NCBI GenBank assembly: GCA_964019135.1
Contig: OZ025249.1
Location: 6,498,039-6,562,038, forward strand
DNA from: Arenicola marina
Taxonomy: Eukaryota; Annelida; Polychaeta; Arenicolidae
DNA length: 64,000 nucleotides
Direction: 5' to 3'
The number at the start of each line of letters is the position of its first letter. Within the stretch, counting starts at the first letter, position 1. The position numbers and the translations under genes are program-made. Positions 1 to 64,000 of this stretch are shown in pieces. The notes beneath the pieces were generated by a model. That model was not told the DNA's origin and ran no database searches. It saw only the letters and a list, made by a program, of their open reading frames with translations.

Positions 1-354
1 GGGTTCACGTTACCCCCTCCTCTCTGGTATCGCCCTCCTAGACCTCCCCGACCCCCCGTCCCCCCGTCCCCACACACACACCAAGACCCGGTCAGCAACA
101 ATGAACAGGTACACAGATACAGAGGAATAGTGCAGGTCCGCGTCAGAGAAGCGTGGAAGGTCAAGGACAAATAACACGTTTGCCATGTCAGGTTTCACAC
201 ATTGTGATGCGCAATCGAGAGGAATACACAACCGCCATCCCCAGGCAAGATCATTGTAAACGATGATCAACAGAGCATGTATTGTAATGGGGTAGGGGAT
301 ACGGTATGAGAGTTACAAAGTTATTTTGAATGAATCTTTCGTTGGAATGAGAGG
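1..354. other. non-coding flank, nothing recognised
   Basis: C-rich stretches and a short CA run occur, but I see no exon with good splice sites and no recognisable protein. It probably belongs to the intron or 5' flank of the EML-like gene that runs rightwards. Confidence 0.4.
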
Positions 355-1015: not shown

Positions 1016-1510
1016 GATTATGTTGCACTGGCGGATCCAAGGAGAGTGATTTAGAAGTTTTTTAATACCTCTCCCTTCAAGCAAGGGGGTGTTAAAGACT
1101 GCTATGCCTCAATGGCCCTTTTTGAGGAATAATGCCGTTTTCCATGCAAAATCAAGACCATCTCATGTGTGGAACTCTCCTCCCCCACCCCCAGGTTCGC
1201 AATTTTTGCAGTGCCGCCCCCTCCCCCCTTCAAATTCTAGATGCGTTCTTGTGTTGGTTTAACTTGTCTTCTGTAGGTAGTTGTTTGCTAACGTGACGCT
1301 TGCTGCACTTGCATATGCTCTGTGACTGTTGTATTGTGATACATGTGGTGATCTATTGCGGTGCTTTCCTTTCGCTGGGTGTTTTAATTAATCGCAAGTA
1401 TACGATTGTTACATGGTGTTGTCTCTTCTTTCGATGTTGTCTCTGATCGCTATTGTAACTTTATTGTTGTGTCTTTCCTTTCTGGATGTTGTGGATATCT
1501 TTTGCCGCAG

Positions 1511-1582
1511 ACATTCGTAAATTTACGGGCGCTGTCAAGCGGGCATCCGGGTTCCTGACGACCATGAGATCCCTTGTCAGAG
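1511..1582 (+). CDS. EML: EML-like exon A (first seen in window)
   Basis: The 72-bp exon lies between acceptor TTTGCCGCAG and donor AGAG|GTAAAG. It enters and leaves in phase 1 and encodes residues 1-23 (IRKFTGAVKRASG...). No domain is recognised; support comes from the good splice sites and the in-frame join to exon B. Its donor is the seed of the following 35-bp array. Confidence 0.65.
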
Positions 1583-4500
1583 GTAAAGAACCGCCATGTT
1601 TGTTATGTATGTCAGAGGTAAGGAGCCGCCATGTTTGTTATGTATGTCAGAGGTAAGGAGCCGCCATGTTTGTTATGTATGTCAGAGGTAAGGAGCCGCC
1701 ATGTTTGTTATGTATGTCAGAGGTAAGGAGCCGCCATGTTTGTTATGTATGTCAGAGGTAAGGAATCGCCATGTTTGTTATGTATGTCAGAGGTAAGGAG
1801 CCGCCATGTTTGTTATGTGTGTCAGAGGTAAGGAACCGCCATGTTTGTTATGTATGTCAGAGGTAAGGAGCCGCCATGTTTGTTATGTATGTCAGAGGTA
1901 AGGAGCCGCCATGTTTGTTATGTATGTCAGAGGTAAGGAGCCGCCATGTTTGTTATGTGTGTCAGAGGTAAGGAACCGCCATGTTTGTTATGTATGTCAG
2001 AGGTAAGGAGCCCCCATGTTTGTTATGTATGTCAGAGGTAAGGAGCCGCCATGTTTGTTATGTATGTCAGAGGTAAGGAGCCGCCATGTTTGTTATGTAT
2101 GTCAGAGGTAAGGAGCCGCCATGTTTGTTATGTATGTCAGAGGTAAGGAGCCGCTATGTTTTTTATGTATGTCAGAGGTAAGGAGCCGCCATGTTTGCTA
2201 TGTATGTCAGAGGTAAGGAACCGCCATGTTTGTTATGTATGTCAGAGGTAAGGAGCCGCCATGTTTGTTATGTATGTCAGAGGTAAGGAGCCGCCATATT
2301 TGTTATGTATGTTAGATGGTGAGGCCAAGGGATGCCGCCATGTTTGTTCCAGCGGAATGGCGAGCCGAAGCATTGACACCCAAGGCTACACGTTGATTAA
2401 TAATGCAATTGCCCCACGAATGGTCCATCTGAGGCCCAAAATGGGGAAACTGCAGGAATTGACACAGATGGTACGGACAATAGATGAAGCACAAAGCCAT
2501 GTTAACGACGAAACTGGAGCCAAAGTTTTGAATAGGGCGAGTGGAGGGAAGTGGGAACGATCCATATGCCCCTCCCCCCCCCCACCCCCCCTCGTTCTGC
2601 CATCACTGTCCCCTCTTTGTGAGCCTCTCTTTATTGTTTCTCGTGAAAGTATTCAAGTGAAATCATTAACATTCCTCGTGGCATTGTCCTACCATGATGA
2701 AAACAGTCAGTGACGTTTAACCTATAATGATGGTACTTTGTCAGCAAAGCACTATCTGCACAGCGTAATAGATGCCACTCAAAAAATCCGAAGGATTATG
2801 GATTTATAAAGGCAATTTTTAGCCATCGTACGACGAACACATGTATTGGTGTCTTGATTATTCCTTGCCCCTGTCGCTAACGACATTGGTCCTCCATTGA
2901 TTGAATGACCGTTGTGGAGATTACTAACGTCCCCCCCCTAACGTTGTCTGCCAGGAGACTCCAGCAAGCCGATACCCCTGATTCAACTGGAGCGGTCAGC
3001 GACTGAAGGGCCCATTGCAGAGGAAGAGCAGACCAGGGCGCGTAAGTCAAGCCTTCTTGTCGTCCTCACCAATATGGCTTAGGTCAAGGCCGAGGTATTC
3101 ACTGTGAAGAAGATGGCCTCTTACCATTCTAGCCTAGAGTTTGCTAGGCGGGAGAAGTCAATGGAACGGTTGCCATGGTAATGTAGAGTAACAGAATCCG
3201 ACGACCTCACTCTTACAATAATAGCCGGTATGACCTTGTCTCGTAATAGCAATAGCTGATCCGACCTTGTTGACTGTTAACAATAGCCAATATGACATTG
3301 TTAACTAATAACAATAGCTGACATGACCTTGTTGACTAATAACAATAGCTGATATGACCTTGTTGACTAATAACAATAGCTGATATGACCTTGTCCATTA
3401 ATACAAATAACTGATATGACTTTGTCCAATAATAACCGCAATGACCTTGCTCAACAAAAATCTTATTGAAAACGCTTTATTGGAAGCGGAATAAGGATTT
3501 TGCTTTGAAATGGTTTAAAGCTTCGTCTAAATCTTCGGACTTTAAACAGATTCTGCATGGAGCATTGCTGTGATTTAATCGGATTCTGCTTGGTATGGGG
3601 TATGTGCTGTACTTTGGGCCTATCTCAATAGTGAAATATAAGATGCCATGGAAACAAGGAGACTGGCACTTTGTTTTATGCATGATATATAATATGGATA
3701 CAATGCAGGACATGCTCAAAGTAACATATATGATACCAGATGAACCACGCAACATACGGAATGGGTTTGTGGGGGGTGGGGGGGTTGAACCCAAACTGGG
3801 GTTGGACGTTGAATTAGACAACGTCAATCATGTTGTCCTGGATACCGCGGTATTCCACTTAAACCACGGTGGGGGGCACCCCACCAACCCATTGATTGCA
3901 TTTTTCTCTGCCACACTTAGACACGCCGCCATCGGATGACAACACTGTGAAACTTTTTTTCATGTTTATTTCGAAGAGGAAATCTTGTTATTCGCAAACT
4001 GCGATCAAACAGATCATCAGGTATATGCCATTATTCGGTCAAGAAAAGTAGCACTGTGAGATTCTTTTAATATTCTAAAAACGTTCAATCTAAAATTAAT
4101 TTCGGCATTAAAGAACATAACAATATTGCACGTGCGTTCGTTTGGATGATTATTTCGAATTGATCAATCTTTGTATAAAAGGTAAGCTGTTAAAGATAGA
4201 ATGACATCAATATCATGATTAGTGCTACCAATGAATATATCGAAGGCTGTCATATTTATAGCCAAAGCTATTTCTATTTAACTCCAGATAATCGTTGCAT
4301 TCATATATGAGATGGATTATATCATGTGTACTGTCACAAATCGTGCATTGAGTACAGTCACTTTTACCCCATCGCATTAAAAGTTTCTTGCATGCTAGAA
4401 TCAGTTGTAAAACTTTGTAATTAAATTCTGCCAATTTCTTATCCGTCATTGTTTTTATCTTAATACGGTAAACTTCATGGAACTTCATACCAGAGTCCAT

Positions 4501-19500: not shown

Positions 19501-22500
19501 ACTCCTTGCCCTGTCTGTATGGTGTGTCTTCTCTCTGCCCACTCCTTGCCCTGTCTGTATGGTGTGTCTTCATTCTGCCCACTCCTTGCTCTGTCTGTAT
19601 GGTGTGTCTTCTCTTTGCCCACTCCTTGCCCTGTCTGTATGGTGTGTCTTCTCTTTGCCCACTCCTTGCCCTGTCTGTATGGTGTGTCTTCTCTCTGCCC
19701 ACTCCTTGCCCTGTCTGTATGGTGTGTCTTCTCTCTGCCCACTCCTTGCCCTGTCTGTATGGTGTGTCTTCTCTCTACCCACTCCTGCCCACTCTTTGCC
19801 CTGTCTGTATGGTGTGTCTTCATTCTGCCCACTCCTTGCCCTGTCTGTATGGTGTGTCTTCTCTTTGCCCACTCCTTGCCCTGTCTGTATGGTGTGTCTT
19901 CTCTCTGCCCACTCCTTGCCCTGTCTGTATGGTGTGTCTTCTCTCTACCCACTCCTGCCCACTCTTTGCCCTGTCTGTATGGTGTGTCTTCTCTTTGCCC
20001 ACTCCTTGCCCTGTCTGTATGGTGTGTCTTCATTCTGCCCACTCCTTGCTCTGTCTCTATGGTGTGTCTTCTCTTTGCCCACTCCTTGCTCTGTCTGTAT
20101 GGTGTGTCTTCTCTTTGCCCACTCCTTGCTCTGTCTGTATGATGTGTCTTCTCTTTGCCCACTCCTTGCCCTGTCTGTATGGTGTGTCTTCTCTTTGCCC
20201 ACTCCTTGCTCTGTCTGTATGATGTGTCTTCTCTTTGCCCACTCCTTGCTCTGTCTGTATGGTGTGTCTTCTCTTTGCCCACTCCTTGCCCTGTCTGTAT
20301 GGTGTGTCTTCTCTTTGCCCACTCCTTGCCCTGTCTGTATGGTGTGTCTTCTCTCTGCCCACTCCTTGCCCTGTCTGTATGGTGTGTCTTCTCTTTGCCT
20401 GCCCCCACAGCTCGGATTAGATGTCGTCTGTGACATGGACTTCAGCCCGCAGGAACCGGACACTGTGGTGATAATCGGCAAGGAGCACCTGGGGTGGTGG
20501 CGAGTGGACACCCAGGGGAAGGCCGTCTCGCTGTGTCGCCAGCCCGACTACCAGGTATGGAGGGGTCAGCGAGGCCCGACCTCCCCCCCCCCCACCTCCT
20601 CGTCGGTGTCATGTAACATTCGCACATGTTCTTGGGTCACCGCCCGTCCCTCCGTCTGTGACCCGCCTCGTCAAGGTGTGATGTTGCCCCACCCCCTGTC
20701 TTGTCTCAGGCACTCAGACCCCTCGATCGTCAGACCCTTAACCCCCGTCTGCGTCATAACATCGATGTCATGTAACGGCGCTATAGGGCTATACAGTTCT
20801 CGCGATCAGGGCCGCGAGACTTCAGCTTGGGTTCCAAACAAACACACATGTTGAAGTATAGGCAGCTATAAGACCATCTCACTAAACATGGCTATTGGAG
20901 GTATACGGTAAAATATTTAGAGGCGATGAATATAGCAAATATTCGTCATTGTTTTGGCGCAAAGGAATGAAAAATATGTCGTCTATCCGTTTTGTGTACC
21001 TACATTTCTTAAATATGCTTAATCATATCGCTAGGCCTTCCGCAATGGATCCACCCCTCGGCGCCTGGCTCCTGCGCAGGTAGTCTGGTTCCCTGTCACT
21101 GTCTTTACGGAACATATACGTTACGCATATGTCACAGATAGCCAGGATACCAGTGTGTGCAGAGATTCTAAACTCGTTCTGAACAGGTGCTTCGTTTGTT
21201 TTTCTCCAAAATAAGTAAACTGGAAGTCTTGGCGAACGAGGCTTTCTTGTAAATTTAGCTTCAGCTTTCTCTGCCGTGCACTGCGGACAATAAGGTGTAC
21301 ATGTCAACTTCATCATAGGTTAACATGATGTTTCTAAAAACAAAAACACACTTCGTGCAAAGAAATAATTATTTTTCTGGCATCTATTTTGACTAGAGAT
21401 ATTAATAAGCTAATTCAGGAATACATATCGTACAAAATACATAACTTGATACCCGATGTGTACCGATTGTAACTTGTTATGATATGGATCGGTATACACT
21501 GTCTTTTCAATGCGAATCCCAGTGCACTCGAGGGACATGGGGCCCTGTAGCGTAGCAACCAGGAAAGTTGAACGGGGAGCCTGACATATAGCATTCTTAA
21601 ACTGTTCTTAAGTTGGTGCAATATAAGCTGCGATTCCATTACAATATGTCAATACTCAAAGGGAATTTTATAGAGACAATTTGTGTGTTGTTCTGTGAAT
21701 ACCAATGCCATAAAGCCAACCTACCCCTGACAAAGAAACGTTGACGCCGGGGGTACCTGAACCAACATGTGAGATCTACGCTGGAATCGGTTTTATAACC
21801 CGAAACACGTGGTGTCTATGTTTGACGATGGATGTCGCCAGGGGTATCTTGACGGTCTATACCTTATCAGAAATATTGGTGTTTGACGATCCCGTGGATA
21901 ATACGTAACTGATTGAGGATGCGGTGCCAATCCAATTTCTCATACTGCTGATATCCTATTCATCGACTACTATGTATTTCTCTCTTTAATGTAGACATAC
22001 CTGCGGGCAAAGTTCGTTATCTGTTTGCTGCACAACGACAATGGTGATCTTATCACTGGCGATTCCAACGGCACGGTGTACGTTTGGGGGCATGGCGGCA
22101 ACGTGGTCACCAACCTGATCAAGCACGCTCACAGCGTACGTATGTCATACCGACTAACACCGTCATGCCATGATGGCACGCTCACAGCGTACGTATGTCA
22201 TACCGACTAACACCGTCATGCCATGATGGCACGCTCACAGTGTACGTATGTCATACCGACTAACACCGTCATGCCATGATGGCACGCTCACAGTGTACGT
22301 ATGTCATACCGACTAACATCGTCATGCCATAATGGCACGCTCACAGCGTACGTATGTCATACCGATTAACACCGTCATGCCATGATGGCACGCTCACAGC
22401 GTACGTATGTCATACCGACTAACACCGTCATGCCATGATGGCACGCTCACAGCGTACGTTTGTCATACCGACTAACACCGTCATGCCATGATGGCACGCT

Positions 22501-25500
22501 CACAGTGTACGTATGTCATACCGACTAACACCGTCATGCCATGATGGCACGCTCACAGTGTACGTATGTCATACCGACTAACACCGTCATGCCATGATGG
22601 CACGCTCGCAGTGTACGTATGTCATACCGACTAACACCGTCATGCCATGATGGCGCGCTCACAGCGTACGTATGTCATACCGACTAACACCGTCATGCCG
22701 TGATGGCACGCTCACAGTGTACGTATGTCATACCGACTAACATCGTCATGCCGTGATGGCACGCTCACAGTGTACGTATGTCATACCGACTAACACCGTC
22801 ATGCCATGATGGCACGCTCACAGTGTACGTATGTCATACCGACTAACATCGTCATGGCATAATGGCACGCTCACAGCGTACGTATGTCATACCGATTAAC
22901 ACCGTCATGCCATGATGGCACGCTCACAGCGTACGTATGTCATACCGACTAACACCGTCATGCCATGATGGCGCGCTCACAGTGTACGTATGTCATACCG
23001 ACTAACACCGTCATGCCATGATGGCACGCTCACAGCGTACGTATGTCATACCGACTAACACCGTCATGCCATGATGGCACGCTCACAGTGTACGTATGTC
23101 ATACCGACTAACACCGTCATGCCATGATGGCGCGCTCACAGTGTACGTATGTCATACCGACTAACACCGTCATGCCATGATGGCACGCTCACAGTGTACG
23201 TATGTCATACCGACTAACACCGTCATGCCGTGATGGCACGCTCACAGTGTACGTATGTCATACCGACTAACACCGTCATGCCGTGATGGCACGCTCACAG
23301 TGTACGTATGTCATACCGACTAACACCGTCATGCCATGATGGCACGCTCACAGTGTACGTATGTCATACCGACTAACATCGTCATGCCATAATGGCACGC
23401 TCACAGCGTACGTATGTCATACCGATTAACACCGTCATGCCATGATGGCACGCTCACAGCGTACGTATGTCATACCGACTAACACCGTCATGCCATGATG
23501 GCACGCTCACAGCGTACGTTTGTCATACCGACTAACACCGTCATGCCATGATGGCACGCTCACAGTGTACGTATGTCATACCGACTAACACCGTCATGCC
23601 ATGATGGCACGCTCACAGTGTACGTATGTCATACCGACTAACACCGTCATGCCATGATGGCACGCTCACAGTGTACGTATGTCATACCGACTAACACCGT
23701 CATGCCATGATGGCACGCTCACAGTGTACGTATGTCATACCGACTAACACCGTCATGCCGTGATGGCACGCTCACAGTGTACGTATGTCATACCGACTAA
23801 CACCGTCATGCCATGATGGCACGCTCGCAGTGTACGTATGTCATACCGACTAACACCGTCATGCCGTGATGGCACGCTCACAGCGTACGTATGTCATACC
23901 GACTAACACCGTCATGCCATGATGGCACGCTCACAGTGTACGTATGTCATACCGACTAACATCGTCATGCCATAATGGCACGCTCACAGCGTACGTATGT
24001 CATACCGATTAACACCGTCATGCCATGATGGCACGCTCACAGCGTACGTATGTCATACCGACTAACACCGTCATGCCATGATGGCACGCTCACAGCGTAC
24101 GTTTGTCATACTGACTAACACCGTCATGCCATGATGGCACGCTCACAGTGTACGTATGTCATACCGACTAACACCGTCATGCCATGATGGCACGCTCACA
24201 GTGTACGTATGTCATACCGAATAACACCGTCATGCCATGATGGCACGCTCACAGTGTACGTATGTCATACCGACTAACACCGTCATGCCGTGATGGCACG
24301 CTCACAGCGTACGTATGTCATACCGACTAACACCGTCATGCCATGATGGCACGCTCACAGCGTACGTTTGTCATACCGACTAACACCGTCATGCCATGAT
24401 GGCACGCTCACAGTGTACGTATGTCATACCGACTAACACCGTCATGCCATGATGGCACGCTCACAGTGTACGTATGTCATACCGACTAACACCGTCATGC
24501 CATGATGGCACGCTCACAGTGTACGTATGTCATACCGACTAACACCGTCATGCCGTGATGGCACGCTCACAGCGTACGTATGTCATACCGACTAACACCG
24601 TCATGCCATGATGGCACGCTCACAGTGTACGTCTGTCATACCGACTAACACCGTCATGCCATGATGGTACGCTCACAGCGTACGTATGTCATACCGACTA
24701 ACACCGTCATGCCATGATGGCACGCTCACAGTGTACGTATGTCATACCGACTAACACCGTCATGCCATGATGGCACGCTCACAGTGTACGTATGTCATAC
24801 CGACTAACACCGTCATGCCATGATGGCACGCTCACAGTGTACGTATGTCATACCGACTAACACCGTCATGCCATGATGGCACGCTCACAGTGTACGTATG
24901 TCATACCGACTAACACCGTCATGCCATGATAGCGCGAGTGAAACCTAAACAATAATCAGTGTAATTGCAGAATTGACTTTAATAATAGGCCTATACACGA
25001 AAGAGCGAAACATGCCAAGTCTAATGTTACCAAACTTGCTGAATTGCCGGTGTATGATTGTATATTTGAATGTCAAAGACGCACTTTTTCTTCTCAGAAG
25101 AAACAAAGTTACTAAAATTCACATGAAGTTCATTGCATTATATATTGCATTATAACCCTGTCTGACCTGAGTTTGAACACCCAGGGCCCGGTCCACATCA
25201 AGTACATTGCATTATATAATGGGTTTAACCCTGTCTGACCGGACTTTGGACATTCAGGGCCAGGTCCACATGGAGTACATTGCATTATATAATGGGTTTC
25301 ACCCTGTCTGACCCGACTTTGGACATCCAGGGCCAGGTTTACATGGAGTACATTGCATTATATAACGGGTTTAACACTGTCTGACCTGACTTTGAACATC
25401 CAGGGCCCTGTCCACATCAAGCACATCGCATTATATAACGGGTTTAACACTGTCTGACCTGACTTTGAACATCCAGGGCCCTGTCCACATCAAGTACATC

Positions 25501-28500
25501 GCATTATATAACGGGTTTAACGCTGTCTGACCTGACTTTGAACATCCAGGGCCCTGTCCACATCAAGTACATTGCATTATATAACGGGTTTAACGCTGTC
25601 TGACCTGACTTTGAACATCCAGGGCCCTGTCCACATCAAGTACATTGCATTATATAATGGGTTTAACCCTGTCGGGCCTGACTTTGAACATCCAGGGCCA
25701 GGTCCACATGGAGTACATTGCAATATATACCGGGTTTAACCCTGTCTGACCTGACTTTGGGCAAACCTGGGCTAGGTCCACATCAAGTACATTGTATTAT
25801 ATGATGGGTTTAACGCTGTCTGACCTGACTTTGGGCAAACCAGGGCTAGGTCCACATCAAGTACATTGCATTATATAACGGGTTTAACCCTGTCTGACCT
25901 GACTTTGGACATCCAGGGCCAGGTCCACATGGAGTACATTGCAATATATACCGGGTTTAACCCTGTCTGACCTGACTTTGGGCAAACTAGGGCTAGGTCC
26001 ACATCAAGTACATTGCATTATATAACGGGTTTAACCCTGTCTGACCTGACTTTGGACATCCAGGGTCCGGTGTTCTCGTTACTCCTGACGCGAGGGACTC
26101 TGGTGACCACTGGTCGAGACGGCGCCATACACGGATGGACTTTCAACAAGAACATGGAGAAGACCGGCAAGTTACAGGTCTGTATGCCATGTGCATACTG
26201 TGCATTATATATACTGACATGTAGTTGTTAACGGAGAAACCCAATAGTAATTCCATATAACTGCATCCAATTTGATTCCCACATGCCAGATTGTATTGCT
26301 CTACGCATGTAACTTCAAATTATGAAAATATTATATTACATGGATGAGTGCATACTTCTACAAAACCATTGAGCAATTAGCACCCGCCCCCACCGCCCTC
26401 CGCACTTAATCTACATACGCTAATTATTAAATCAACATTAATACAGTTTCAGAATTTAAGATATATTCGATTGATTTATTTTAAGATCTAATCCCGATAT
26501 CATCAATAGCTGATCAGGACACTTAGTTATGGCCGTAATTCGGTTTGTGCAGATTCCTGGGCAGGAGGGAGGGGGCCGGATGCTACAGGTACACAAAGAC
26601 AGCCTCCTGATCGGCACGACCACCAACTCGATCCTCAGGGTCAAGCTGGCTGGTCACGCCTTGAGAAACCCTCTGTCAGGCTGCGTCATGGATGCTCTGG
26701 CCATCACACAGGTTCGCTATTGGCTGTAGTCTGATATTTAATATATTTGTGTTCATCAAACTGCTGCATGGCCAGTTATGGAGCGTAACGTAACAAGCCA
26801 TGTATGCTAGTTGCAGACCAAGACAATTTACCCCTGGCCCTATAATTCCATACGGAAATAACCGTTATACAGTGAGTATAGGGGTGCAGCCATCTTCGTG
26901 GAATTTACCTTTCAGCCAATAATATTAGAAAGACATTGCAATATATTTAGGATAAATTCGATATTTGTCCTTATGATTTTTATGAGCGGAGGCTACGAGA
27001 TCTAAGTGTATCAGAAAGAAATATATAGCCAGGCGTCGCGCCACCGACCCTAACCCCCCCCCCCCTACCTTACTGTGCCACTTTGTCTCGTTATATCTGT
27101 CGTGTCACTCTGTCACATAGGGTCACTATGACGACCTGCAGGGCCTGTGTGCCCCCCAGGACGAGGAAAACTCGGGTTTCGTCGTCACCGGGGGCCAAGA
27201 TGGCATGTTATGTCTGTTTGACACCGCGAAACGGCAACCATGTTGGAAGTTCGCCATTCAGGTAGTTGTTGACCCTACTCTATTCAGCGACCCGTGGGCA
27301 CTATCGCCATCGGAAGCGAATTAAAGGAGTTAGCTGGTATCGAGCTGATACTACTATGAACACACTTCCAAGAACAAAATGTATCATGAGTTTCATGCCT
27401 GTGGACACATGTTTTGGAATACATGTATGTACTTTATTAGTACCGTAATTTGGGGTATCAGGGGACTGTTTATGCCATGTAAACGTTGGTATCTCCTTTT
27501 CCAACGCACCACCCCCCTCCCCTCTTTTCTTCCCATCCCACCGACCCCCACGTCACGTGACACTTCCATGTATCAATATCAACCTGACAATAGCTAAAGC
27601 AGGCTAACAATTCAGGATGGAAACGCAAACATCTGTTGTGTGTTGCCAGGACGCCCAGATCACGTGCGTCGACGTCAACATCTCGGATGGCATTGTTGCT
27701 ATAGGAACGTGTAACAGGTGAGCGAAAAAGGAAAAACTCATTTTGGATGCAATTTCTTTGCATCCAATACAATTTAATTTTGCAAATGAAAAAAAACGAG
27801 CCGTTCTCTTGGTCCTTTGCTGATACTGATATGGACGGGTTCACAGCCATGCTATTATAAGCTCATACCGCCTTTGTCATGGACAGCCATTGCTTACTTA
27901 TTCGTGATATGTTTTCCTCGTCACAGCCTTGTTGTTCTGACCATTCACACCAGTGAAGAGGGACAGACGTATCTTAAGGAAGTCTGCAGAATGGAGATGG
28001 CTGGGAATGCCGCCAGTGTAATTAAATTGGCCCCAGGTAAGCTGAGCGTGGTCGCTAGGGACATTGTGGTGTTTCGAAGAAAGTGAACTGGCTCTCGCAA
28101 AAGCTTCGTCAGCTCAGCGTAAGCTAAAGATTTTATTCCCTTTTATTCCCATATTTAGTTGATACGCATTGTTGATGCACATATGGCTATTAATCCTAAT
28201 CCTTATCTAAATGCAAGCCACCACCACATGTCACCACAACTCTTTCTATGTCTGGTTCTATGTTTGCTGTCACTTCGCCCTGTCTATCTCGTCTGTTTCT
28301 ATGTCTGATTTCACATCGCCGTGGCTGTCTCTTCTGTTTCTATGTCTGCTGTCACTTGGCTCTGTCTGTCTCGTCTATTTCTATGTCTGCTTTCACTTCG
28401 CTCTGTCTATCTCTGCTGTTTCTATGCCTGCATGCTTTCATTTTGCCCTATCTATCTCTCCTGTTTTCATGTCTGTTCATACTTCGCCCTGTCTCTTCTG

Positions 28501-46965: not shown

Positions 46966-47100
46966 TCACTTACCTGGCTGGTAACCATTGTTGTTGGTAA
47001 GTTTGGGTTTCTTTGAATGGTGACGTCCTATCTGGTCAAATATTCCTTTGTATACAAGGGTCCCAACGGCCCCACCGAGCATGGGGCCCGCCCAGTAAAC
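46966..47100 (-). CDS. AQP: AQP-b exon 5 (helix 6, basic tail)
   Basis: Encodes [20 protein letters not shown] and a basic tail ([10 protein letters not shown]...) ending GYQPGK and TGA at 46966-46968. If the CCAG|GTAAGT donor at 46974 is used, the tail would continue in an exon I could not find. Confidence 0.82.
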   Translation of the reverse strand, partial: VYWAGPMLGGAVGTLVYKGIFDQIGRHHSKKPKLTNNNGYQPGK

Positions 47101-50100
47101 CTGCAGAAAAACAGTACGCAAGTTTTATAAACCAGGGTCTCCATGGCCCCTCCGAGCATGGGGCCCGCTCAGTAAACCTGCAGAAAAACGTACACAAGTT
47201 GTCAACGCGACAAGGTAGCACCACCTTTCGTCGGGTTTAAATACAGTGCGTGCATATATTTATCCAGCATTTATGCAATTTTCAGCTTTTGTGTGTGAGT
47301 TGTGTGTGTCTTCCTCTGGTGGGTCATGCCGTGGTTGCATAATGATGAACTGTGGCTCCACCCAGTGGAGGGGGGGGGGGTGCTGGGGAGGTACTACCCA
47401 GGCGAGATTGACAGTGACTGTGCCCCCTGTGTCCCCTTCTTCAGAAAAAGGAGGTCACGTGCCTTTTTGTCGCCTATTTTCCAGCGAAAGAAAGGCATGT
47501 GCCATCTAAATATATAGCTGTACCCACTCCATGGCGGCTGGATAAGACGCAGAAGTGGATTTAAATGAGAACTGTTTTTCGTAAATTGAACTCAAGACAG
47601 GAAACTATTGCCGTCTGTCCGCCATGCTCACCCACTTTCTAAACTGATGTAGTCATGACAAAAGGTGATTGATTCAAAAGAAGGTCGGTTGCATATCAGC
47701 TGTTTCTTTCCTTACCCAGTGGTCTTTCCACTTGCTCTTGACTAACGCGGGACCGAAGCTGCGAGCCGGATTCATGCTTCCCCCGGTGTGCTTCCACTGA
47801 AACAAACACCAGCCACAATAATCACACTATACAGTGATTCATGCTTCCCCCGGTGGGCTTCCACTGAAACAAACACCAGCCACAATAATCACACTATACA
47901 GTGATTCATGCTTCTCCCGATGTGTTTCCACTGAAACAAACACCAGCCACAATAATCACACTATACAGTGATTCATGCTTCCCCCGGTGTGTTTCCACTG
48001 AAACAAACACCAGCCACAATAATCACACTATACAGTGATTCATGCTTCCCCCGGTGTGTTTCCACTGAAACAAACACCAGCCACAATAATCACACTATAC
48101 AGTGATTCATGCTTCCCCCGGTGTGTTTCCACTGAAACAAACACCAGCCACAATAATCACACTATACAGTGATTCATGCTTCCCCCGGTGTGTTTCCACT
48201 GAAACAAACACCAGCCACAATAATCACACTATACAGTGATTCATGCTTCCCCCGGTGTGTTTCCACTGAAACAAACACCAGCCACAATAATCACACTATA
48301 CAGTGATTCATGCTTCCCCCGGTGTGTTTCCACTGAAACAAACACCAGCCACAATAATCACACTATACAGTGATTCATGCTACCCCCGGTGTGTTTCCAC
48401 TGAAACAAACACCAGCCACAATAATCACACTATACAGTGATTCATGCTTCCCCCGGTGTGTTTCCACTGAAACAAACACCAGCCACAATAATCACACTAT
48501 ACAGTGATTCATGCTTCCCCCGGTGTGTTTCCACTGAAACAAACACCAGCCACAATAATCACACTATACAGTGATTCATGATTCCTTCTGCGTGCTTCCA
48601 CTGAAACAAACACCAACCACATGAATGTCACACTATACAGTGATTCATGCTTCCTTCCGCTTGTTCCACTGAAACAAACACCATCCACAGGAATGTCACA
48701 GTAGTCAGTGATTCATGCTTCCTTCCGCGTGCTTTCACTGAAACACACACCAACCACATGAATGTCAGACTATACAGTGATTCATGCTTCCCCCGGTATG
48801 CTTAATGGCAAGGGTTAGTCATGGGCCGAGAATTAACCATCGGTAGAATTTGCTTAAACTTGGCATACGGTTAGTATAATATCTCTTTAGTCTTAAACAT
48901 AAGGACAAAAAATGTATTATCATTGTTCCGATTGCATACCAACAATGGCACGATATAGCCTTACAGGCAGGATGAAAGTGCCGTTAAGCCCCAATCAAAT
49001 CAAAGCATACCAACACGATTCATGGCACAAAAGACTGAACCAGTGATAGGGTTATAACGAATACGACACAAAGGATCGATTTGACATTGCTTAGTCACAA
49101 TGCACCAATATTCTACCCGACTTTAGGGGTGGGTGTATACAGCCTCCCATAACTTTTTAAAGAGGTATTATAGTATTTTTTTTAGTTTCCATGTCTCAAT
49201 ATATATTTCTCAATAGCTCTCAAGTTGTAGGAAATTCTATGGAGCGGTTTTGTTTGAAAGACAAAAAATGTATCTGACATGTATTATGAAATCTGCCAAC
49301 CTTCGTTGCGTCATATTCGGAGTTGCCTTATATGCATAACAGAAGTCAGAACACTTTGCATAACGAATTGTAAACCTGGCTGATGTGTGTGAAATATGTA
49401 TGTAATGATATTACTACATACTTCCGTCAGGCGGAATACCTTAATATTTAGATTACACTACCTAAACCGGGGAGGGGGGAAGGGGGGCACTCTTATACAA
49501 ATCTGTGGGAGGGTTCCGCGTGTGCCCCTTGACATGCCTGAGGGGTCGGACACTTGTGATGAAATAGATACCCCTATAATAGAGCGGATATTTTAAAACT
49601 TGCGACTGGGGCGGGGGGCTCTGAAAATGCGCGACATTGAGCTGGTCTACGAAAAGAAAAACCCCTTGCGAGCGGATTTTGACGGTACAATGTTCCTACC
49701 GAGCGTTGTTTAGAGGTGAAAAGGGGGGGCTTTACGGCCCCCCCCCCCCGGGAAACCCAGCAATATACTAGGTACCTCCTATTTTTTACCTATTTATTAC
49801 CTCCTGGCATTTTAGGTTATTCAATCACATGCGACCTCGGCATTGGCCCTATCACGGCCTTCCACGCTCATGACAAATCAAGCCTACGCATTGTCTACGA
49901 AGTCCAGGCCTTCACATCGTCTGCCAAGTCCAGTGAAGACCTCCCATTTAACGACATACTGTACAGAGGATGCCGACAGTGAAGACCTCCCATTTAACGA
50001 CATGCGTACTGTACAGAGGATGCCGACAGTGAAGACCTCCCATTTAACGACATGCGTACTGTACAGAGGATGCCGACAGTGACGACCTCCCATTTAACGA

Positions 50101-53100
50101 CATGCTTACTGTACAGAGGATGCCGACAGTGAAGACCTCCCATTTAACCACATGCTTACTGTGCAGAGGATGCCGACGGTGACCGCCAAGCCAATGATCA
50201 GCGGCGGCACGAATAGCCCTCGCGGCTTGCGGAAGTTGTTAGTAGATCCGTAGATGGCTATGACCAGGACCATGGTGATCCACATCTCTGTCAGGACGCC
50301 CTGCCAGGGACTCACGCCGGGACCAAGCGCTGTGGCCGCCAGGCTCTCCTGGACGTCTTCAGGGGTGATCCTGGAAGAAAGCACATCTGGATCTCCATGA
50401 ACGTGAATGATGGATATCTCTGGTTGGCCAACGAGACTGTGTACTAGATTCCTCTGTCATTAAGAGAGACCTAGTTGGTCTGTTTGTATTTACAGTTTAC
50501 ATGTATGTACTGCCAGCCGGTGACGTCATATTACTGTTTTCACGACAGCGACGGTCACGTAGTGGCCTATTCTAGTCACGTGTCCTCTAAGGTTACAACC
50601 CAATATACGTAGTGTCATGCTAAAAAATGACGCTCTTGGGGCCTTGAATCTATATTTCATGGATGAGTACAAAGCCTTTGACAGGATACATATTGCAATG
50701 AGACAGCGTGAGCCTATAATTATGTTTTATCGGTTCCATTATGTTGACGTATGGCAAAAATTACTTGACCAGTGATATGGAACTTTATCTGTAGCTACAT
50801 TATGACTAATCGGTGGAGGTGACTTATGCATCGGTGTTTTTGTCTACATATCTATGACTGGGTTATTCCAAAGTAGAATGTCACATGCGATAACATCTTC
50901 GCTCCTGGTGGGTTGTGGTCGACATCACCCTGCACCGTAGTATCTTATTATGTGGGACTGGTGTCATGCCTACTTACATTTTTATGAACATCGCGCCGGC
51001 CATGGCACCAGCCATCTGGGCGAACAAGTAGAAAAGTCCTGAGAGACGAACAGAAATCAGAGAGTCAAGTAGCTTTCATTAAGGGTCGGTAGACCTGTTA
51101 CGTCAGATGCTTATTGAAAGCAATATTTTCTATATTTGTTATAATTCCAATCTCTTCTCCATGTCAAATAAGTATATTCTGTTTTAAATCTAAATCCTGA
51201 AAGCCTGTGGGTTTCCCGGAGAAAAGCAAATTTGTTCACGGGAAAAGAAGTTGGTGGCCGGCTTTATATCCCTGCGCCTTTTCACTGTTCGGTGTTCTGT
51301 GTGATGTCGACAGCGGCTCGCTAGGACGTCCGCGCGCAATAAAATAGTCCGCAGTTTTATGTTGAAATTGTTGTTTTACAGCCTCAACGTGATATAAAAC
51401 CTTTAGGCATCATAATTTACGTTAGATACATTTAGCCTTGATTCTAAAATGTTTAAAATCTAAGATGGCCCATGTAAGTAGGCTGCTTTAACACTATATA
51501 CTCGGAAATTTATGAGCAACGATAGTAGCTTTATGGAGCGAGTTCTCGATCACAAGATTCCTCTTTCATCTGGAGCTTTGTAATGTAGCTTGTAATGAAA
51601 TGTAAATATAACATGTGAAAATCAGGTCGTTCATTTTGGCCTTTCGTTGCGCTGTTGGCGATATTTATTGTCACCCCTTTCCGCCCACCCACACCCTCTA
51701 CCTCATGACAACGCCTACCATGTATAGCCCTCTCTTCTTCACTTTCTTCGCTTTCTCGTCACGGATGGTGACCCACCCCCCTCCAAGTCCCTCCAGATTC
51801 AACCCCTGCCTCGCCCTCGCCACAGCAACCCTCCAACAATTTAACGCCGACTCGTAACATCTAGCGAACAGTAGATTGTCAAGGCCACCGCAACGCTCCA
51901 TTGATTTACCGCAGACCGATATATGTGGTCTCGGCGCCAGATCGGAGAGCCATCTAGCGAATTAGATATTACCAGGGCCTCTGCAACGCCCAAACGGCCA
52001 CCATTGCTTGTTGAATACATGGGTACGTGTTACCCCAATAAATCTATCCAGAACTGTTTTCTTTGCCTTCAGTCGAGGTCTAAAATAAACAAAAAATCCG
52101 CCCGTCTCTTTGTCCCAAGTTTTTTTCCGCCATGGAGTTATAGGGCGGATATATAACTGACCTACCTCCCCCAGCCCCTCGACACGCATCTCCCCTCTCA
52201 CTCGGCCACCCCGACTTAGTCCCATGCACCCAAAACCCTGACGCGGGTCATTGACTTTCGCAATTGACGACACAGCCCGCCATGTCGTTGGTTACATAGC
52301 CAATGCGGATATTCATACACACATTTTGTTATACTCTAAAAACATTGGCCATCTGTGTGCATAGAGAAAGTTTAGAATACCAACATCAGGTGGAGAGATG
52401 GGCTTCTAGGCTTTCAAGGGATGCACAAATGAGCGACATAACCAAGACGACTTCAATGAAAACTGACGACCGGGTATCAGCATCTATTGGGAGGACACTC
52501 ATATTCTCCAAATATTAAGGAGTTTAAGGTAGTTGCCTGATTGATCGGTTTACGGGGTTTCATTTAGCCTTAACTACGCCATTCACTGTTAAACCACGTT
52601 GTCAATGTATTGCAATCCGTCATTCATATGACTTCAGTAATCAGATTTCAGTAATACATATGAAATCTCGTAATACGGAAATAAAAGTAATTCTAAATGG
52701 CTCCAACCATAACGAACCATAACGTACATGAATAAGAAAATAATAATCTTGCCCTCACCTAATCAATAAAAACTTGAAATTGTGCCCTCAACTCGCGTGA
52801 ACACGAATACAAACATTTAACAACCGGCATTCATCTCAAGTAAACGGGATGAATAATAATGTAAAACCTGCCCTTCCATCTGATGAAGATGGATATACAA
52901 TCGATGTCTTGTCCTCACCTCTGGTGAACGTGATTTCCAAGCCCAGCACCATGGCGAAGGTGACTGCCGGGTTCATGTGTGCGCCGCCGAAGTCTCCCAG
53001 AGCCCAGGCGAGGACGGCGACGACGAAGCCCATGCCGAGGGCGGTCTGGACGGGGGTGCCGAGACCCGGGTCCCCCCATGACAGCGGCAAGGTGCACTGC

Positions 53101-57272: not shown

Positions 57273-58103
57273 TTACGCAGGATGCGTGTTCTGGCCCCGC
57301 AGATGGGGCGGTTTCTTTCGGACCACCGCGTAATATGTGGCACCGGAAGTCACAAGCTGCTCCACTTCCGCTTTGGTTCTGCTTTCTCTCCTGCTCAGAT
57401 CCGCCCTGTTTTCTCTGGCGTCTGGACTCCTTAGGTCCAACCCTCGGTCTCTGGCGGCTGGATTCAACCTTGTGGATGGGCTCCCTGGATCTGACCTTCT
57501 CTCTCTTGTCTCCGGATGCTCTCTACCAGGAGAATGAGTTCGGTTACGTATATAATTGTTTTCTTCTGCTCTGTTTTGTCTGCTCATTGGATCCAGCCTT
57601 CTTCGGTGTATATCTGGATTCGCCGAGCTTTGCCCCCTGTCCGTATTTGCCGTGGTCTGTCCTCTTTCCGGATCCGCCGTGGTCTGTCCTCTTTCTGGAC
57701 TCGTCATGCTATGTCCTCTTTCCGGATTCATACCTCTGCCAGGATCAACGATACCCTGTCTTCTATCGGGATCCGCCCCACTCATTCGACCTTCTGGATC
57801 TGTCCTCCTAAGGTTGCCATGTATATCCACCTCGTCAGGTTGGCGGTCTGGATCATTCCGGGTCGCCCCAGATGCGGATCTCTGGACAGGCTGCCTTTCT
57901 CCGCCATCGACATACCGGACTCGCGGCGGCCCTCTGGATAACCGACCGAGGCGCCGGCGTGCCCTCTGGGGCGACCCCTGCCGGCGGCGGCCGCGGCGCA
58001 GGCCCCTCGGTCGGATCCAGGGTCGGGGTCGCTCCGGACTGTCCGCCAGGGTGTAGAGTCCCGCCGCCACGAAGGCCGCCACCACCGAGGACACCCAGTA
58101 AAC
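57273..58103 (-). CDS. AQP: AQP-c exon 5 (helix 6 and long tail)
   Basis: Codes 276 residues and TAA at 57273-57275. After VYWVSSVVAAFVAAGLYTLA comes an Arg/Pro-rich stretch (RPRGLRRGRRRQ), a repeat zone with SPERGQTTADPERGQTTA, then ERRSDPGSPS and SRRESRTKAEVEQL. No domain is recognised; the tail is predicted disordered and cytoplasmic. Confidence 0.85.
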   Translation of the reverse strand, partial: VYWVSSVVAAFVAAGLYTLADSPERPRPWIRPRGLRRGRRRQGSPQRARRRLGRLSRGPPRVRYVDGGERQPVQRSASGATRNDPDRQPDEVDIHGNLRRTDPEGRMSGADPDRRQGIVDPGRGMNPERGHSMTSPERGQTTADPERGQTTANTDRGQSSANPDIHRRRLDPMSRQNRAEENNYIRNRTHSPGREHPETRERRSDPGSPSTRLNPAARDRGLDLRSPDARENRADLSRRESRTKAEVEQLVTSGATYYAVVRKKPPHLRGQNTHPA

Positions 58104-61100
58104 CTGCAACACCACAAACCCATCATTGCATGTGTCCCTTGTTTAAATTTAATACTTTAATTGTTTGGTAACTAACTCTACCTTCATACACTGATTAACT
58201 ATGTAACTATATAATTTATATATATATAGATTTATTTGTGCTCCATCATACTTAAGCGATACAAGATTCGTAACAACGTAGAGTGAACCACTAATCCGTA
58301 AGGTACCCCCGAAAGTTATTATTACAAATAACATCATTCAACATGAATCTCATCATGCGAGTATCACTGGCGAAGGACCCGTAATACGGGTCTGACGCCC
58401 GAATGCAGGACTTGGGGGGAGCACAGGTTACCCCTCCCCCCCACCCCCCCCACCCCACTCACTCCGCCACACACACACACACTCACACAAACGAAACCAC
58501 CACCTTGGCGGCCCATGTTAGAAGCCGTCTGGGCTTCATGCAATTTATGCAATTCGATAATAAATATATATGGTTAAGATAATCAAGTTCAAAATAGAAT
58601 CAAACAACAACAGTGATAAACATTCTTGCTTGTTTCCAGATATCTGTTTCGTGATTATGTTATCTTTTGTTTGACAAAATAAACCGGGTTAGAGATAAAC
58701 ACTTGACAAAGCAAGGTCAAAATGTGCGAAACCGGCGAGCGGTAGCCAGCTGATTACGTGATCAGCAATTGAGCAACCTCAGCAAACGGTGACCCTCCCA
58801 GAGGCCACAACTTACACAGTGACCTTTCCACCGGTAGTAACTGTCCCAGTGACCCACCCAGGGGTCACAACTAACCCAGCATCCCTACCAGGGGCCACGA
58901 CTGCCCCAGTGACCCTCCCAGGGGTCACGACTCACCCAGTGACCCTCCCATGGGCCACGACTGCCCCAGTGACCCTCCCAGGGGTCACGACTCACCCAGT
59001 GACCCTCCCAGGGGTCACAACTAACCCAGCATCCCTCCCAGGGGTCATGGCTGCCCCAGTGACCCTCCCAGGGGTCACGACTCACCCAATGACCCTCCCA
59101 GGGGTCACAACTAACCCAGCATCCCTCCCAGGGGTCATGACTGCCCCAGTGACCCTCCCAGAGTTCACGACTCACCCAGTGACCCTCCCAGGGGCCACGA
59201 CTCACCCATTGACTGTCCCAGGGGCCACGATTCACCCAGTGACTGTAACAGGGGTCACGACTCACCCAGTCACCCTCCCAGGGGCCACGACTCACCCATT
59301 GACTGTCCCAGGGGCCACGATTCACCCAGTGACTGTAACAGGGGTCACGACTCACCCAGTGACCCTCCCAGGGGTCACGACTCACCCAGTGACTCTCCCA
59401 GGGGCCACGCCTCACCCAGTGACCCTCCCAGGGGCCACGATTCACCCAGTGACTGTCCCAGGGGTCACGACTGCCCCAGTGACTGTCCCAGATGTCACCA
59501 CTCACCCAGTGACCCTCCCAGGGGCCACGACTCACCCAGTGACCCTCCCAGCGGCCACCACTCACCCAGTGACTGTCCCAGATGTCACCACACACCCAGT
59601 GACTGACCCAGGGGCCACGACTCACCCAGTGACCCTCCCAGCGGCCACCACTCACCCAGTGACTGTCCCAGATGTCACCACTCACCCAGTGACTGTCCCA
59701 GGGGCCACGACTCACCCAGTGACTGTCCCAGATGTCACCACTCACCCAGTGACTGTCCCAGATGTCACCACTCACCCAGTGACCCTCCCAGGGGCCACGA
59801 CTCACCCAGTGACTGTCCCAGGGGCCACGACTCACCCAGTGACTGTCCCAGGGGCCACGACTCACCCAGTGATCCTCCCAGATGTCACCACTCACCCAGT
59901 GACTGACCCAGGGGCCACGACTCACCCAGTGACTGTCCCAGGGGCCACGACTCACCCAGTGACTGTCCCAGGGGCCACGACTCACCCAGTGACTGTCCCA
60001 GGGGCCACGACTCACCCATTGACCCTCCCAGGGGCCACGACTCACCCAGTGACTGTCCCAGGGGCCACGACTCACCCAGTGACCCTCCCAGGGGTCACGA
60101 CTCACCCAGTGACTGTCCCAGATGTCACCACTCACCCAGTGACCCTCCCAGGGGCCACGACTCACCCAGTGACTGTCCCAGATGTCACGACTCACCCAGT
60201 GACTGTCCCACGGATTGTCCACGCGGCCGTAGAGCGCCAGGACAACCACAGGGCCGAGGGAACGAGCGGGATTCATGCTGGCCCCGGTCGACGGCAACTG
60301 AAATAGTAACATATCCTTTCATCTCATAACATAACATAACATATATGTTATGCTTGGTTTAGGGAAAACATTAAAATGGCAACCATAGAGGAAACGAAAC
60401 ATGAGGCAGACATGAGGGACGGTACAAGGGGGTGGTGGGGAACATGCCATCCCCTGCTACCGTCCCTCTTGTCTGTCACATAGCATTATTTCATATGATA
60501 TTAACCTCATTTTACTGGGAGGGATATTATTTTAGCCCAAAACATATTTCGCTTCGAACCTCACAACACCTAATGACAAGTACACATTAATCTTTCAAAC
60601 GCCGCTTTTCTGATATGATTCTCATGGTAGCTGTCAGCCTTCGTTTCAGAGCTACCTGAGAGGTTAGAGGCCTCAAACAGAATCAGTGCCATCATTATGC
60701 AAACTTCAATGCTCCAAGTGCCACCGTTTCAGCCTTCACCCTTCACCTGGCCACGTGTAGTTTTACCCGTGTTGTACACCCATTGCATCTGGGACCTGTA
60801 TGGCCATTTAATAAGGGGCATGTTTTATCCATTCATCAATCAGCGTCCCTGGAGGTTCCCTGGAGGTTCCCTGGAGGTTCCCTGGAGGTTCCCTGGAGGT
60901 TCCCTGGAGGTTCCTTGAAATGTACATTCATGTCAGTACCATCGCAATGGTTTTGTTCAATTAGGGAGGTCGACGAACCTTATTCTGATGCCAACAAAGG
61001 ACTGTTAGTATATTAGATCACTGCTGTGCATAAAAAACATGTCCCGAGACCATAAAGGTAATTAGATGACGCACCGATGGGTTCAAGTCATCAAGAGTGC

Positions 61101-64000
61101 CCCCCCCCCCACCCCCACCTCCCTCCCTCCTCCCGCCTGCTTTCCCCTTACCTCCCCATGGATCCATTTTGTCCACCGCCCCCGTTGGTCTGACACCGCT
61201 GGGCACCAAGATGGCGGCCCAGCATTAGTCTTTGTGACCGGCTTCACGTTAAGGATAGTCACACAATTAGATCCCCCACCCTCATGTATATCCGTACGGG
61301 GGTCATTGAGTCAGACTTTGTCTCTAAGCGCTATTAGTAGCATGTTATGTTGAGGCGGGTTGCAAGCCACAAGAAATATTGGTTGGTTTTGAAGCAGCGG
61401 GAGACAGATCGACCAATGGGCGAGTACATAACAATGAGTGTTCTTGAGTCGGTTTGTATAAGTCCGAGACTGCATACGACCCGGTGAATTCATTCACTCT
61501 GTGCGAAAGAGGAAGCGCTATATCCAGACAGAAGATGGCCCAGTGATCTCATTCACTCCGTGAGATAGAGGAACCGGTATACTCAGACTGTATACGGCCC
61601 GGTGAACGCATTAACTCTGTGCGAAAGAGGAACCGGTATGTATACCCACACCAAATGCAACCCGGTGGCATCGTTAACTTCGTACTACACAGTATCTGGT
61701 TTATCCAACATACGCCCGCTCCATGACCTTCACCCCCTCTATGCGAAAGAGGGGGCAGACGGCTGACTCTGGATACGTACGGCGATGAGATGTCCGAGTC
61801 CCAGGACGCAGCCAATCGGAATGGAAGATATCGACACGATCTTCCTCCTCTCTTGATTGGTGGATCCCAGGACTGTCAAGGTCAACATGAGGGTGATCCA
61901 GAATTCTATAAGGAAGACTTGCCACGTGGCGTACCCCCGGCCAGGGAACGTGGCTCCCAAGTTACCGCGATCTCCCTCTGGGGTTATTCTGAAGTCAAAG
62001 CGGGGAACACGTCATTGTCTTTCCTGCTCTCATGAGTACTTCAATTTAATGTAATGCCGTACTTTTGATACTATTTGTTACTTAATTGATGTAGACCTGG
62101 TGAACCTGCATCATGTACGTAATGGGGGGAGGGGGAGGGGGGTTATAAAGGGAGAAACCCTTTTGGGGGGCGCGGACTTGTCATCGCGTTGGGGTAGTGC
62201 GTCCCGGGTCATTAACCTGGAGACGACTGCGGACAAGATGGCCGTTCTGTACGTATAACGGAGGTGCAGTGAGCATTGAGCATACCTCACACGGTCCGGC
62301 ACATACCGCTGATACTAAAACACTAACACACATTCTTCACCACGATACTATAGTGCAAACTAGAGGCGTATGCAGGAATCATTGAAAGGGTGGGGGGGGT
62401 GACAACATGTTCTGCATCAGGGGCGGATACAGTAATGTGAAAAGGAGGGGGGGGGGGGGTGTCCATTGAAACTGGACCAGGGGGTCCATTAAAAAATTTT
62501 ACGACAGGGGGGGGGGGGGTGTGGCACTGAAATCTTCTATGGGGGGTTAGGAACAAAATTACGCTGCATATTACGTACCATTTTGCACATTTTATAATCG
62601 TGGGTAAGAAAGAAAACATAAACTGCGAAGCTTGCTGCATTGTGCTATTTAAGGAGAGGCCAGCGGGCACAAAATTTAAAAAAGGGGGGTGGGACGCAAT
62701 AAAATTCAGGGCCTGAAATGGGGGCACGTGCCCCCTGTGCCCTGCCCCTCTCCCTGGACCCACCTATGCTAACGCTTTATGGTTGATAACTCACATGAAG
62801 ACGAACAGCGCCGCTGTCACAGCGCCCCCTAGCTGCATTATCCAGTAGAAGACAGCTACATGGTCGGAATAAATAAAGCAAGCTGTCATGTAATAAATGG
62901 TAACACAGTAATGCAAAACTATGTCATTGACACACCAAGCTTGCATTGAACCGATCAGACCTCAAAGGCGTTCCTGGTATACAGGCGTTTCAGCCCCTCG
63001 AACACAAAACTGAACGTATTGAGCTGGCATAAGAATTCACTCAGAAACATATACTATGCAATGAAAAATTTATATGTATAGCATATGGTCCTGGACACAT
63101 GGGGCATGGCAAATACCACTCTCCCGACAGGGGTCGCTCATTCCACGGTAACAAGCGGCTGCCCAAGACTGTTCAGGTTGAATATTACATTTTTACGAAC
63201 AATAGGAAAGGTTAAGAGATCCCGATGTTCTTATGACAACTATTGGGATTGGTGAAGGAAAGATCAGAATACAAGATGCCGTTACACTTCAAGAGGCCGT
63301 AGAGCGACTAGAGTTAGCAGTTAGCTTGGTAGCGGCTTTCTGCAGTGTCCTAACCATCCGCCGCCAATAAACCGATCAAACCGAGACATTGCGATTAAGG
63401 ACATGTCAACTGAACCAGCTTCTTGCTGTTTACAGCATAATTAACTGAAACAACTCTTTGCAATTTACAACATAATCAACTGAAACATCTCCTTGCAACT
63501 CCCAACATAACCAACGGAAACAACTCTTTGCATCTCCCAGCATAATCAACTGAAACAACTCTTTGCAGTTTACAACATAACTGAAAAATCTCCTTGCAGT
63601 TTACCACATAATTAAGTGAAAAATCTCCTTGCAATTTAACACATAATCAACTGAAACAACTCCTTGCAGCTCCCAACATAATGAACTGAAACGGTTCCTT
63701 GCAGCTCCCAACATAATGAACTGAAACGGTTCCTTGCAGTTTACAACATAATCAAGGGGAACAACCCCTTTTATTTTACAACATGATCAATTGGAACCTG
63801 TGCACCGACTACCTGCATACCGCTCACTTACCCCTGAGGACCGTGACCTCCAGCCTGGCAGCCAGAGCCAGCGTTATGGCCGGGTTCATGTGGGCACCGC
63901 CAAAGTCTGCGCATGCCCAGCCGACGGCGATCACGAGGAACGCCATCCCCACGCCGACCTGGAGACTTCCGGTGGCGCCATCTTGCGCCCAGGTTTTAGC
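57273..64000 (-). CDS. AQP: aquaporin AQP-c (5 exons seen, 5' partial) with long Arg-rich tail
   Basis: Third MIP-family channel. Exons on the - strand: 64000-63832 (partial), 62855-62795, 61988-61781, 60297-60196, 58103-57273, with the same phases 1, 2, 0, 0 as its neighbours. First NPA in [11 protein letters not shown], second in TGASMNPARSLG. By spacing the filter is Met, His (in LGLGHLIA), Ala, Arg, close to the orthodox AQP1/AQP4 type. Exon 4 is 21 bp longer than in the other two genes (34 codons), lengthening the loop before helix 6. Helix 6 starts VYWVSSVVAAF, lacking the usual Gly-Pro. The last exon codes 276 residues, of which about 250 form a hydrophilic Arg-rich tail with ERGQTTADP-type repeats. 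The start codon lies beyond the window. Confidence 0.9.
58785..60215. repeat. minisatellite, 30 bp x about 47, carries copies of AQP-c exon 4 donor
   Basis: On the - strand the unit is CACTGG|GTGAGTCGTGACC then CCTGGGACAGT. The first copy is the real exon 4 end, so most units repeat a full 5' splice site. On the - strand the array is open in the exon 4 frame from 60297 to about 58885, coding VSRGPWDSHW-type decapeptides. The + strand is open too (VTLPGATTHP-type), which is a shadow. Confidence 0.96.
60196..60297 (-). CDS. AQP: AQP-c exon 4 (second NPA)
   Basis: A 102-bp, phase-0 exon encoding LPSTGASMNPARSLGPVV... to NPWDSHW. Acceptor CTATTTCAG, donor CACTGG|GTGAGT. The end (WDSHW) and donor are the seed of the 30-bp array, and the exon frame continues open through it. 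Confidence 0.92.
60298..61780. other. AQP-c intron 3
   Basis: A short array of 11 bp x 6 (CCCTGGAGGTT) lies at 60850-60915. Around 61460-61700 segments like GCGAAAGAGGAACCGGTAT recur at about 60-bp spacing, a degenerate repeat. The rest is unremarkable. Confidence 0.6.
61781..61988 (-). CDS. AQP: AQP-c exon 3 (208 bp)
   Basis: Encodes ITPEGDRGNLGATFPGRG..., helix 4 (EFWITLMLTLTVLG), loop NQERRK and helix 5 (IPIGCVLGLGHLIA) with the filter His. It is one codon shorter than in AQP-a and AQP-b. Acceptor GACTTCAG, donor GCC|GTACGT. Confidence 0.9.
61989..62794. other. AQP-c intron 2
   Basis: Contains several long G runs (62430-62520). No other feature recognised. Confidence 0.4.
62795..62855 (-). 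CDS. AQP: AQP-c exon 2 (61 bp)
   Basis: Encodes AVFYWIMQLGGAVTAALFVF and part of a Met (helix 3). Acceptor CCATGTAG, donor TTCAT|GTGAGT. Confidence 0.9.
63415..63790. repeat. degenerate tandem repeat, about 35 bp x 10
   Basis: Units resemble AACTGAAACAACTCCTTGCA followed by GCTCCCAACATAATC, in AQP-c intron 1. The other part of the intron (62856-63414) shows nothing recognised. Confidence 0.85.
63832..64000 (-). CDS. AQP: AQP-c exon 1, 3' part (first NPA)
   Basis: Encodes 56 residues, TGSLQVGVGMAFLVIAVGWA then [16 protein letters not shown] to EVTVLR. Donor AGGG|GTAAGT, phase 1. The exon runs off the window edge. Confidence 0.92.

Follow-up and report, generated by a model that had tools for sequence, protein, structure and literature searches.

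Does a gene whose exon end is repeated dozens of times, splice donor included, make use of the copies, or does it merely live with them? The question is raised by the aquaporin gene AQP-c, which lies in the 64-kb stretch of annelid DNA analysed here (the window). An earlier note on this DNA described downstream of its exon 4 a ladder of 47 in-frame donors, the only one of seven splice-site arrays to stay open, and proposed that it could produce a graded family of isoforms or length variants of an extracellular loop, with chance openness named as a real alternative. The ladder is very probably a tolerated minisatellite of a splice junction, that is, a 'mirage' in the sense given to this word in amphioxus, with the first donor in use and the openness of the frame incidental.

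Each unit of the array, which runs on the minus strand, joins 15 nt resembling the end of exon 4 to 15 nt of intron 4. TRF delimited the repeat at 58789-60210 (30 bp, 47.4 copies, 84% matches), and in the register of the donor it contains 47 full units, from 60195 down to 58786 (Table 1). Both the unit list and TRF thus confirm the repetition of exon end and phase-0 donor at the place where it had been reported. The stop-free stretch of about 1.3 kb was recovered as well, the exon frame being open over 43 complete units (~1.31 kb, to 58888) and meeting its first stop, a TAG, in unit 44. The number of donors has to be revised: all 47 units are there, but the donor GT is present in 41/47 and absent from units 25, 36, 39, 42, 44 and 46, so that 39 donors carry GT, are in frame and precede the stop, among which 32/39 read exactly GTGAGT. 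The losses all fall in the distal half of the array (6/6), GT being intact throughout units 1-24, and many of the downstream donors near the exon are identical in sequence to the first one, so that nothing in the local sequence would bar their use. The exon-4 query had a single match in the genome, with no sign of a second allele. Chance could not account for the repetition, but it could for the openness of its frame.

Table 1. Features of AQP-c and splice-junction arrays of the window, in window coordinates (unit length x copies; a slash marks the exon-intron boundary).
Feature	Positions	Strand	Basis
AQP-c exon 3, donor without junction array	61781..61988	-	MIP match
AQP-c exon 4, second NPA exon, LPSTGASMNPARSLGPVVVLALYGRVDNPWDSHW, intron phase 0 at its end	60196..60297	-	translation; MIP match
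Exon-proximal donor GTGAGT (CACTGG/GTGAGT)	60190..60195	-	sequence; exon-4 end placed as in AQP paralogs
AQP-c donor array, 30 bp x 47	58786..60195	-	TRF and unit list
First stop in exon frame, TAG in unit 44	58885..58887	-	translation
Intron 4 acceptor TTGCAG	58104..58109	-	sequence
AQP-c exon 5, aligned start, helix 6, VYWVSSVVAAFVAAGLYTLADSP; exon extends further	58035..58103	-	translation, alignment
AQP-b exon 3 donor array, 50 bp x 5	49931..50182	-	TRF and sequence
AQP-b exon 4 acceptor array, 67 bp x 15	47769..48797	-	
AQP-b exon 5 acceptor duplication, 77 bp x 2	47057..47200	-	
Acceptor array, 73 bp x 13, other end of the same EML-like intron as the next array	25120..26065	+	
Donor array, 53 bp x 53, EML-like (WD40) gene	22123..24930	+	
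Donor-like array, 35 bp x 21 (CAGAG/GTAAGG), after open exon-like frame	1575..2324	+	

The gene that carries the ladder appears to be an intact aquaporin. Both NPA motifs are present, exons 1 and 4 each containing MNPA, and MIP matches were obtained at three exons, the one to exon 4 covering contig positions 6558231-6558347 (E 1.1e-4). Exon 4 ends in NPWDSHW, and exon 5, which is preceded by an ordinary acceptor, begins with VYWVSS. Once joined, exons 3-5 match AQP2 over residues 1-121 of 126 (E 1.2e-20), AQP4 being matched too, and the product of the first donor aligns with AQP2 through loop E into helix 6. Compared with AQP2, this loop has 7 extra residues before NPWDSHW, and the loop of AQP-d is equally long; the end of exon 4 lies at the same place in AQP-c and in the AQP paralogs compared. 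Judged from the predicted protein, splicing from the first donor would give a canonical aquaporin channel with the junction HW/VYW, and each later donor, if spliced, would insert 10 more residues where helix 6 begins. The anatomy proposed earlier, with in-frame phase-0 donors at an AQP exon-4 end, between the second NPA loop and helix 6, therefore holds.

The array was probably formed when a 30-bp segment straddling the junction of exon 4 and intron 4 was duplicated in tandem to give a minisatellite. The exon-proximal donor would remain the one used, as suggested by exon definition and by the canonical HW/VYW junction that it would yield, and the rest of the array would be removed with the 2.09-kb intron 4, the copies being presumably tolerated rather than used.

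Mirages, in the available parts of the papers describing them, are minisatellite-like tandem duplications that span exon-intron boundaries in the Adh3, globin, TnC and PGBD5 genes of amphioxus (PMC3087553, PMC3902484). They lie at donors and at acceptors, with units from 10-72 bp (Adh3) to ~160 bp (globins), and many repeats have AG/GT; Adh3 data and globin RT-PCR are said there to suggest normal splicing, and the length of a globin cluster differs between haplotypes (PMC3087553, PMC3902484). The AQP-c array, as read in genomic DNA, shares the defining anatomy: its unit spans the exon end and the intron start, and AG/GT signals are repeated. The present arrays differ from those sections of the amphioxus reports in their annelid host, in reaching up to ~84 copies, in the AQP-c unit that is divisible by three and open, and in a frequency that was measured (12/66 donors).

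Seven junction arrays were placed in the window, with periods of 35, 53, 73, 77, 67, 50 and 30 bp. Next to AQP-c, the AQP-d gene (L032), which has the same long loop, carries a different array (84 bp x 2.5) at the same donor. Units as unlike as these 30 and 84 bp in neighbours, and those of the other arrays, make it likely that the arrays of different genes arose independently, as far as can be judged by eye. The EML-like gene is named after the match of two joined exons to EML1 (PDB 4ci8, E 9.4e-11), designed propeller proteins scoring better; one of its introns (22123-26065, +) has arrays at both ends, a donor array at the 5' and an acceptor array at the 3' end. In AQP-b, the start of exon 5 is duplicated along with its acceptor, and the outer copy reads VY followed by a stop. 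The window also harbors a 40-bp x 168 tandem array that extends over nearly 7 kb (13475-20399).

The frequency of such arrays was surveyed across the 867-Mb assembly (762 contigs) at donors chosen through protein matches, irrespective of repeats, in exons of aquaporins (39) and CCT chaperonins (27), a spanning array being defined as a tandem array that starts within the exon and continues into the intron. Spanning arrays were found at 12/66 donors (8/39 for aquaporins and 4/27 for CCT), whereas ~2.0 were expected from the 16 other arrays that start in the next 400 intronic bases (binomial tail 2.1e-5 with the basic repeat periods used for the counts; multiples of the true period gave a weaker tail, 0.0026). 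The CCT donors alone gave a tail of 0.01, with 4 arrays at the 20 donors of a first batch and 0 at the 7 of a second. Array starts per base amounted to 0.0030 at -65 to -4, 0.0015 at 0 to 60 and 0.0004 at 61 to 400, and the junction excess was not significant when compared to the first 60 intronic bases alone (12 vs 6 array starts, p 0.12). Among the donors covered in this annelid genome, minisatellites of splice junctions are common. Acceptor arrays also occur, at AQP-b exon 4, L014, L025, L030, L072 and the EML-like intron, the comparison with expectation being confined to donors.

The aquaporin donors come from the 50 MIP matches listed when 150 of 1710 candidates were scored, 39 donors being used after near-identical copies (L015, L016, L040, L041), matches without a clear donor (L017, L021, L022) and 4 others were left out; the AQP-d array, which is not among the MIP matches, stands outside the survey count. 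For CCT, 28 of 49 matches were taken and 21 left out, with 27 donors used as L075 is a last exon. The first CCT batch consisted of the best 23 matches minus three with long open frames, one of which, the 1049-residue frame around match G000 C5:14202523-14202759, is perhaps another open array. Junctions were located by eye, with homology and GT as guides, and in the null test the non-junction array starts and a 380-base flank for seven added donors were entered by hand. Two of the aquaporin loci deserve mention: at L044 (C8), the end of an aquaporin exon 4 and its donor form a 72-bp unit present in ~84 copies over 6 kb (array 7-6392), with indels between units that break the frame, and L021 (C96:10750-11202) is a MIP-like frame interrupted by 3 in-frame TAA codons, on a contig, C96, that may belong to another organism.

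Why the array is there at all could be explained if 5' splice junctions were mutational hot spots that promote tandem duplication, for example by R-loops over a G-rich non-template strand, a proposal compatible with a tolerated mirage and one that we put forward tentatively. The excess of spanning arrays (12/66 donors vs ~2 expected) speaks in its favor, and so does base composition. Indeed, G exceeds C on the coding strand in 13/13 junction arrays (skew 0.08 to 0.62) and in only 4/12 non-junction arrays of the next 400 bases (median skew -0.09), a difference (12 vs 12 arrays, Mann-Whitney p 0.006) that includes the G brought to junction units by the donor consensus itself, which was unmasked and which this control does not remove. 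With the consensus thus included, a G-rich coding strand would fit an instability of the R-loop type. On the contrary, the lack of a significant excess over the first 60 intronic bases and the existence of acceptor arrays argue against a hot spot at the donor.

A wider reading would add a function to the hot spots: 5' splice junctions of the annelid lineage would be prone to minisatellites (about one donor in six), with a cause tied to transcription or splicing such as R-loops, and units whose length is divisible by three, such as those of AQP-c and the C4 aquaglyceroporin-like gene, would yield length-graded proteins through low-level use of later donors. We consider this combination rather doubtful.

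The graded isoform ladder taken by itself, in which several in-frame donors are used and n decapeptides are added at the extracellular start of helix 6, draws on the 39 GT-bearing, in-frame and stop-free donors, many of the proximal ones identical, and on the expectation that the exon with a few units added would still be of normal length. The comparison of the units does not bear it out. Over units 1-43, dN/dS is 1.09 in the exon frame (bootstrap 95% 0.88-2.15) and 0.90 and 0.94 in the other frames, minor alleles are distributed as 46/46/39 over the codon positions, and no purifying selection on the repeat peptide was found between these units. Units 1-24 alone give an exon-frame dN/dS of 15.6, which does not look neutral at first sight and might suggest diversification, although very few changes underlie it; a conserved peptide would give the opposite, and we attribute the value to chance because about six columns vary and hardly any synonymous difference exists.

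Openness itself costs little, as a stop is created by only 4/90 single changes to the AQP-c unit, and the probability that a random unit of its type is open is ~0.77. What keeps the array open is a period divisible by three, together with the lack of a stop in the ancestral unit. Since no other junction array placed in the window has such a period, the observation that only this one of the seven is open is correct there and follows from arithmetic; it does not extend to the genome, where L018 (C4:17270557-17270742), a 33 bp x 46 donor array at an aquaglyceroporin-like exon, forms a second open ladder with a 687-residue open frame and a dN/dS of 1.25 among 42 of the 44 units delimited. The periods break the frame in 6/7 arrays of the window, and no bias to multiples of three was found over 12 junction arrays (remainder 0, 1, 2: 5, 3, 4). 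Furthermore, amphioxus mirages are said, in the accessible sections of the reports, to splice normally (PMC3087553, PMC3902484). An isoform ladder is thus unlikely. The graded isoforms or selected length variants of the earlier note find no support in a dN/dS of 1.09, in a donor GT that is not preferentially kept and in unbiased periods, and its own alternative of chance openness is the better reading.

Repeated 5' splice sites might also be selected for a non-coding role, as landing sites for U1 snRNP, either to stabilise the definition of the exon or to guard against premature polyadenylation. In the longer arrays the majority of units still have GT (41/47, 79/83, 43/45, 27/27 and 34/44) and array starts crowd at the 5' ends of introns, but preferential retention of the donor GT was not found when it was ranked among the other dinucleotides of the unit in 13 arrays (mean mid-rank 0.54, p 0.68), and the acceptor arrays at L014, L025, L030 and L072 are unexplained by U1. 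By plain means, GT lies above the average column in 11/13 arrays, and it is intact in every unit read in 6/13, where ties make the mean uninformative. We hold such a role to be very improbable. Growth polarity, with fresh units next to the exon, showed no significant trend in any of 10 arrays.

The exon-4 donor of AQP-c occupies what we take to be the old exon 3/4 position of vertebrate AQP genes, and this position is common to paralogs with and without arrays, which argues for an old intron. That the arrays mark recently created introns, as proposed for amphioxus globins in the available part of PMC3087553, is scarcely credible with the same donor position in both kinds of paralogs. In the Rogers model, as told in that part of the paper, introns are created by tandem duplication of AG/GT proto-splice segments (PMC3087553); a splice signal is duplicated in AQP-c as well, whereas its intron position is shared with paralogs that have no array.

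The tolerated junction minisatellite that we prefer can be set beside one annelid case. The metallothionein genes of the earthworms Lumbricus rubellus and Eisenia fetida contain intronic minisatellites, with mean monomers of 178 and 181 bp, which are likewise large tandem arrays in annelid introns but are not described in the accessible part of that report as spanning splice junctions (PMC12783039). No report of junction-spanning repeats in annelids was found in the open-licence literature. The taxon, the frequency and the G-rich coding strand are new here, the anatomy having already been described in amphioxus. As far as the available sections of the amphioxus papers go, mirages were so far an oddity of a few genes, whereas they are found here at about 1/6 of the annelid donors surveyed, housekeeping chaperonin genes included. 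With this frequency, three questions can be put to the test: do splice junctions act as hot spots for tandem duplication, how does the spliceosome continue to select a single donor when dozens of copies are present, and to what extent do such arrays mislead gene prediction, open frames of 477 and 687 residues being able to pass for long exons?

Finally, the mitochondrial contig of the assembly (C762), which led us to drop amphioxus in favor of an annelid as the source, has all its genes on one strand, in an order that also exists in some marine sedentarian annelids. GFP family members were searched for and none was found, a result of little weight as the control gave no match either. The mitochondrial protein genes except COX1 were recognised by eye, and of the 25 tRNAs predicted by ARAGORN, 22 agree with the order and 3 were discarded as spurious. 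The order is that of clitellate annelids, according to the Eisenia table of PMC9848864 and the available part of PMC10090101.
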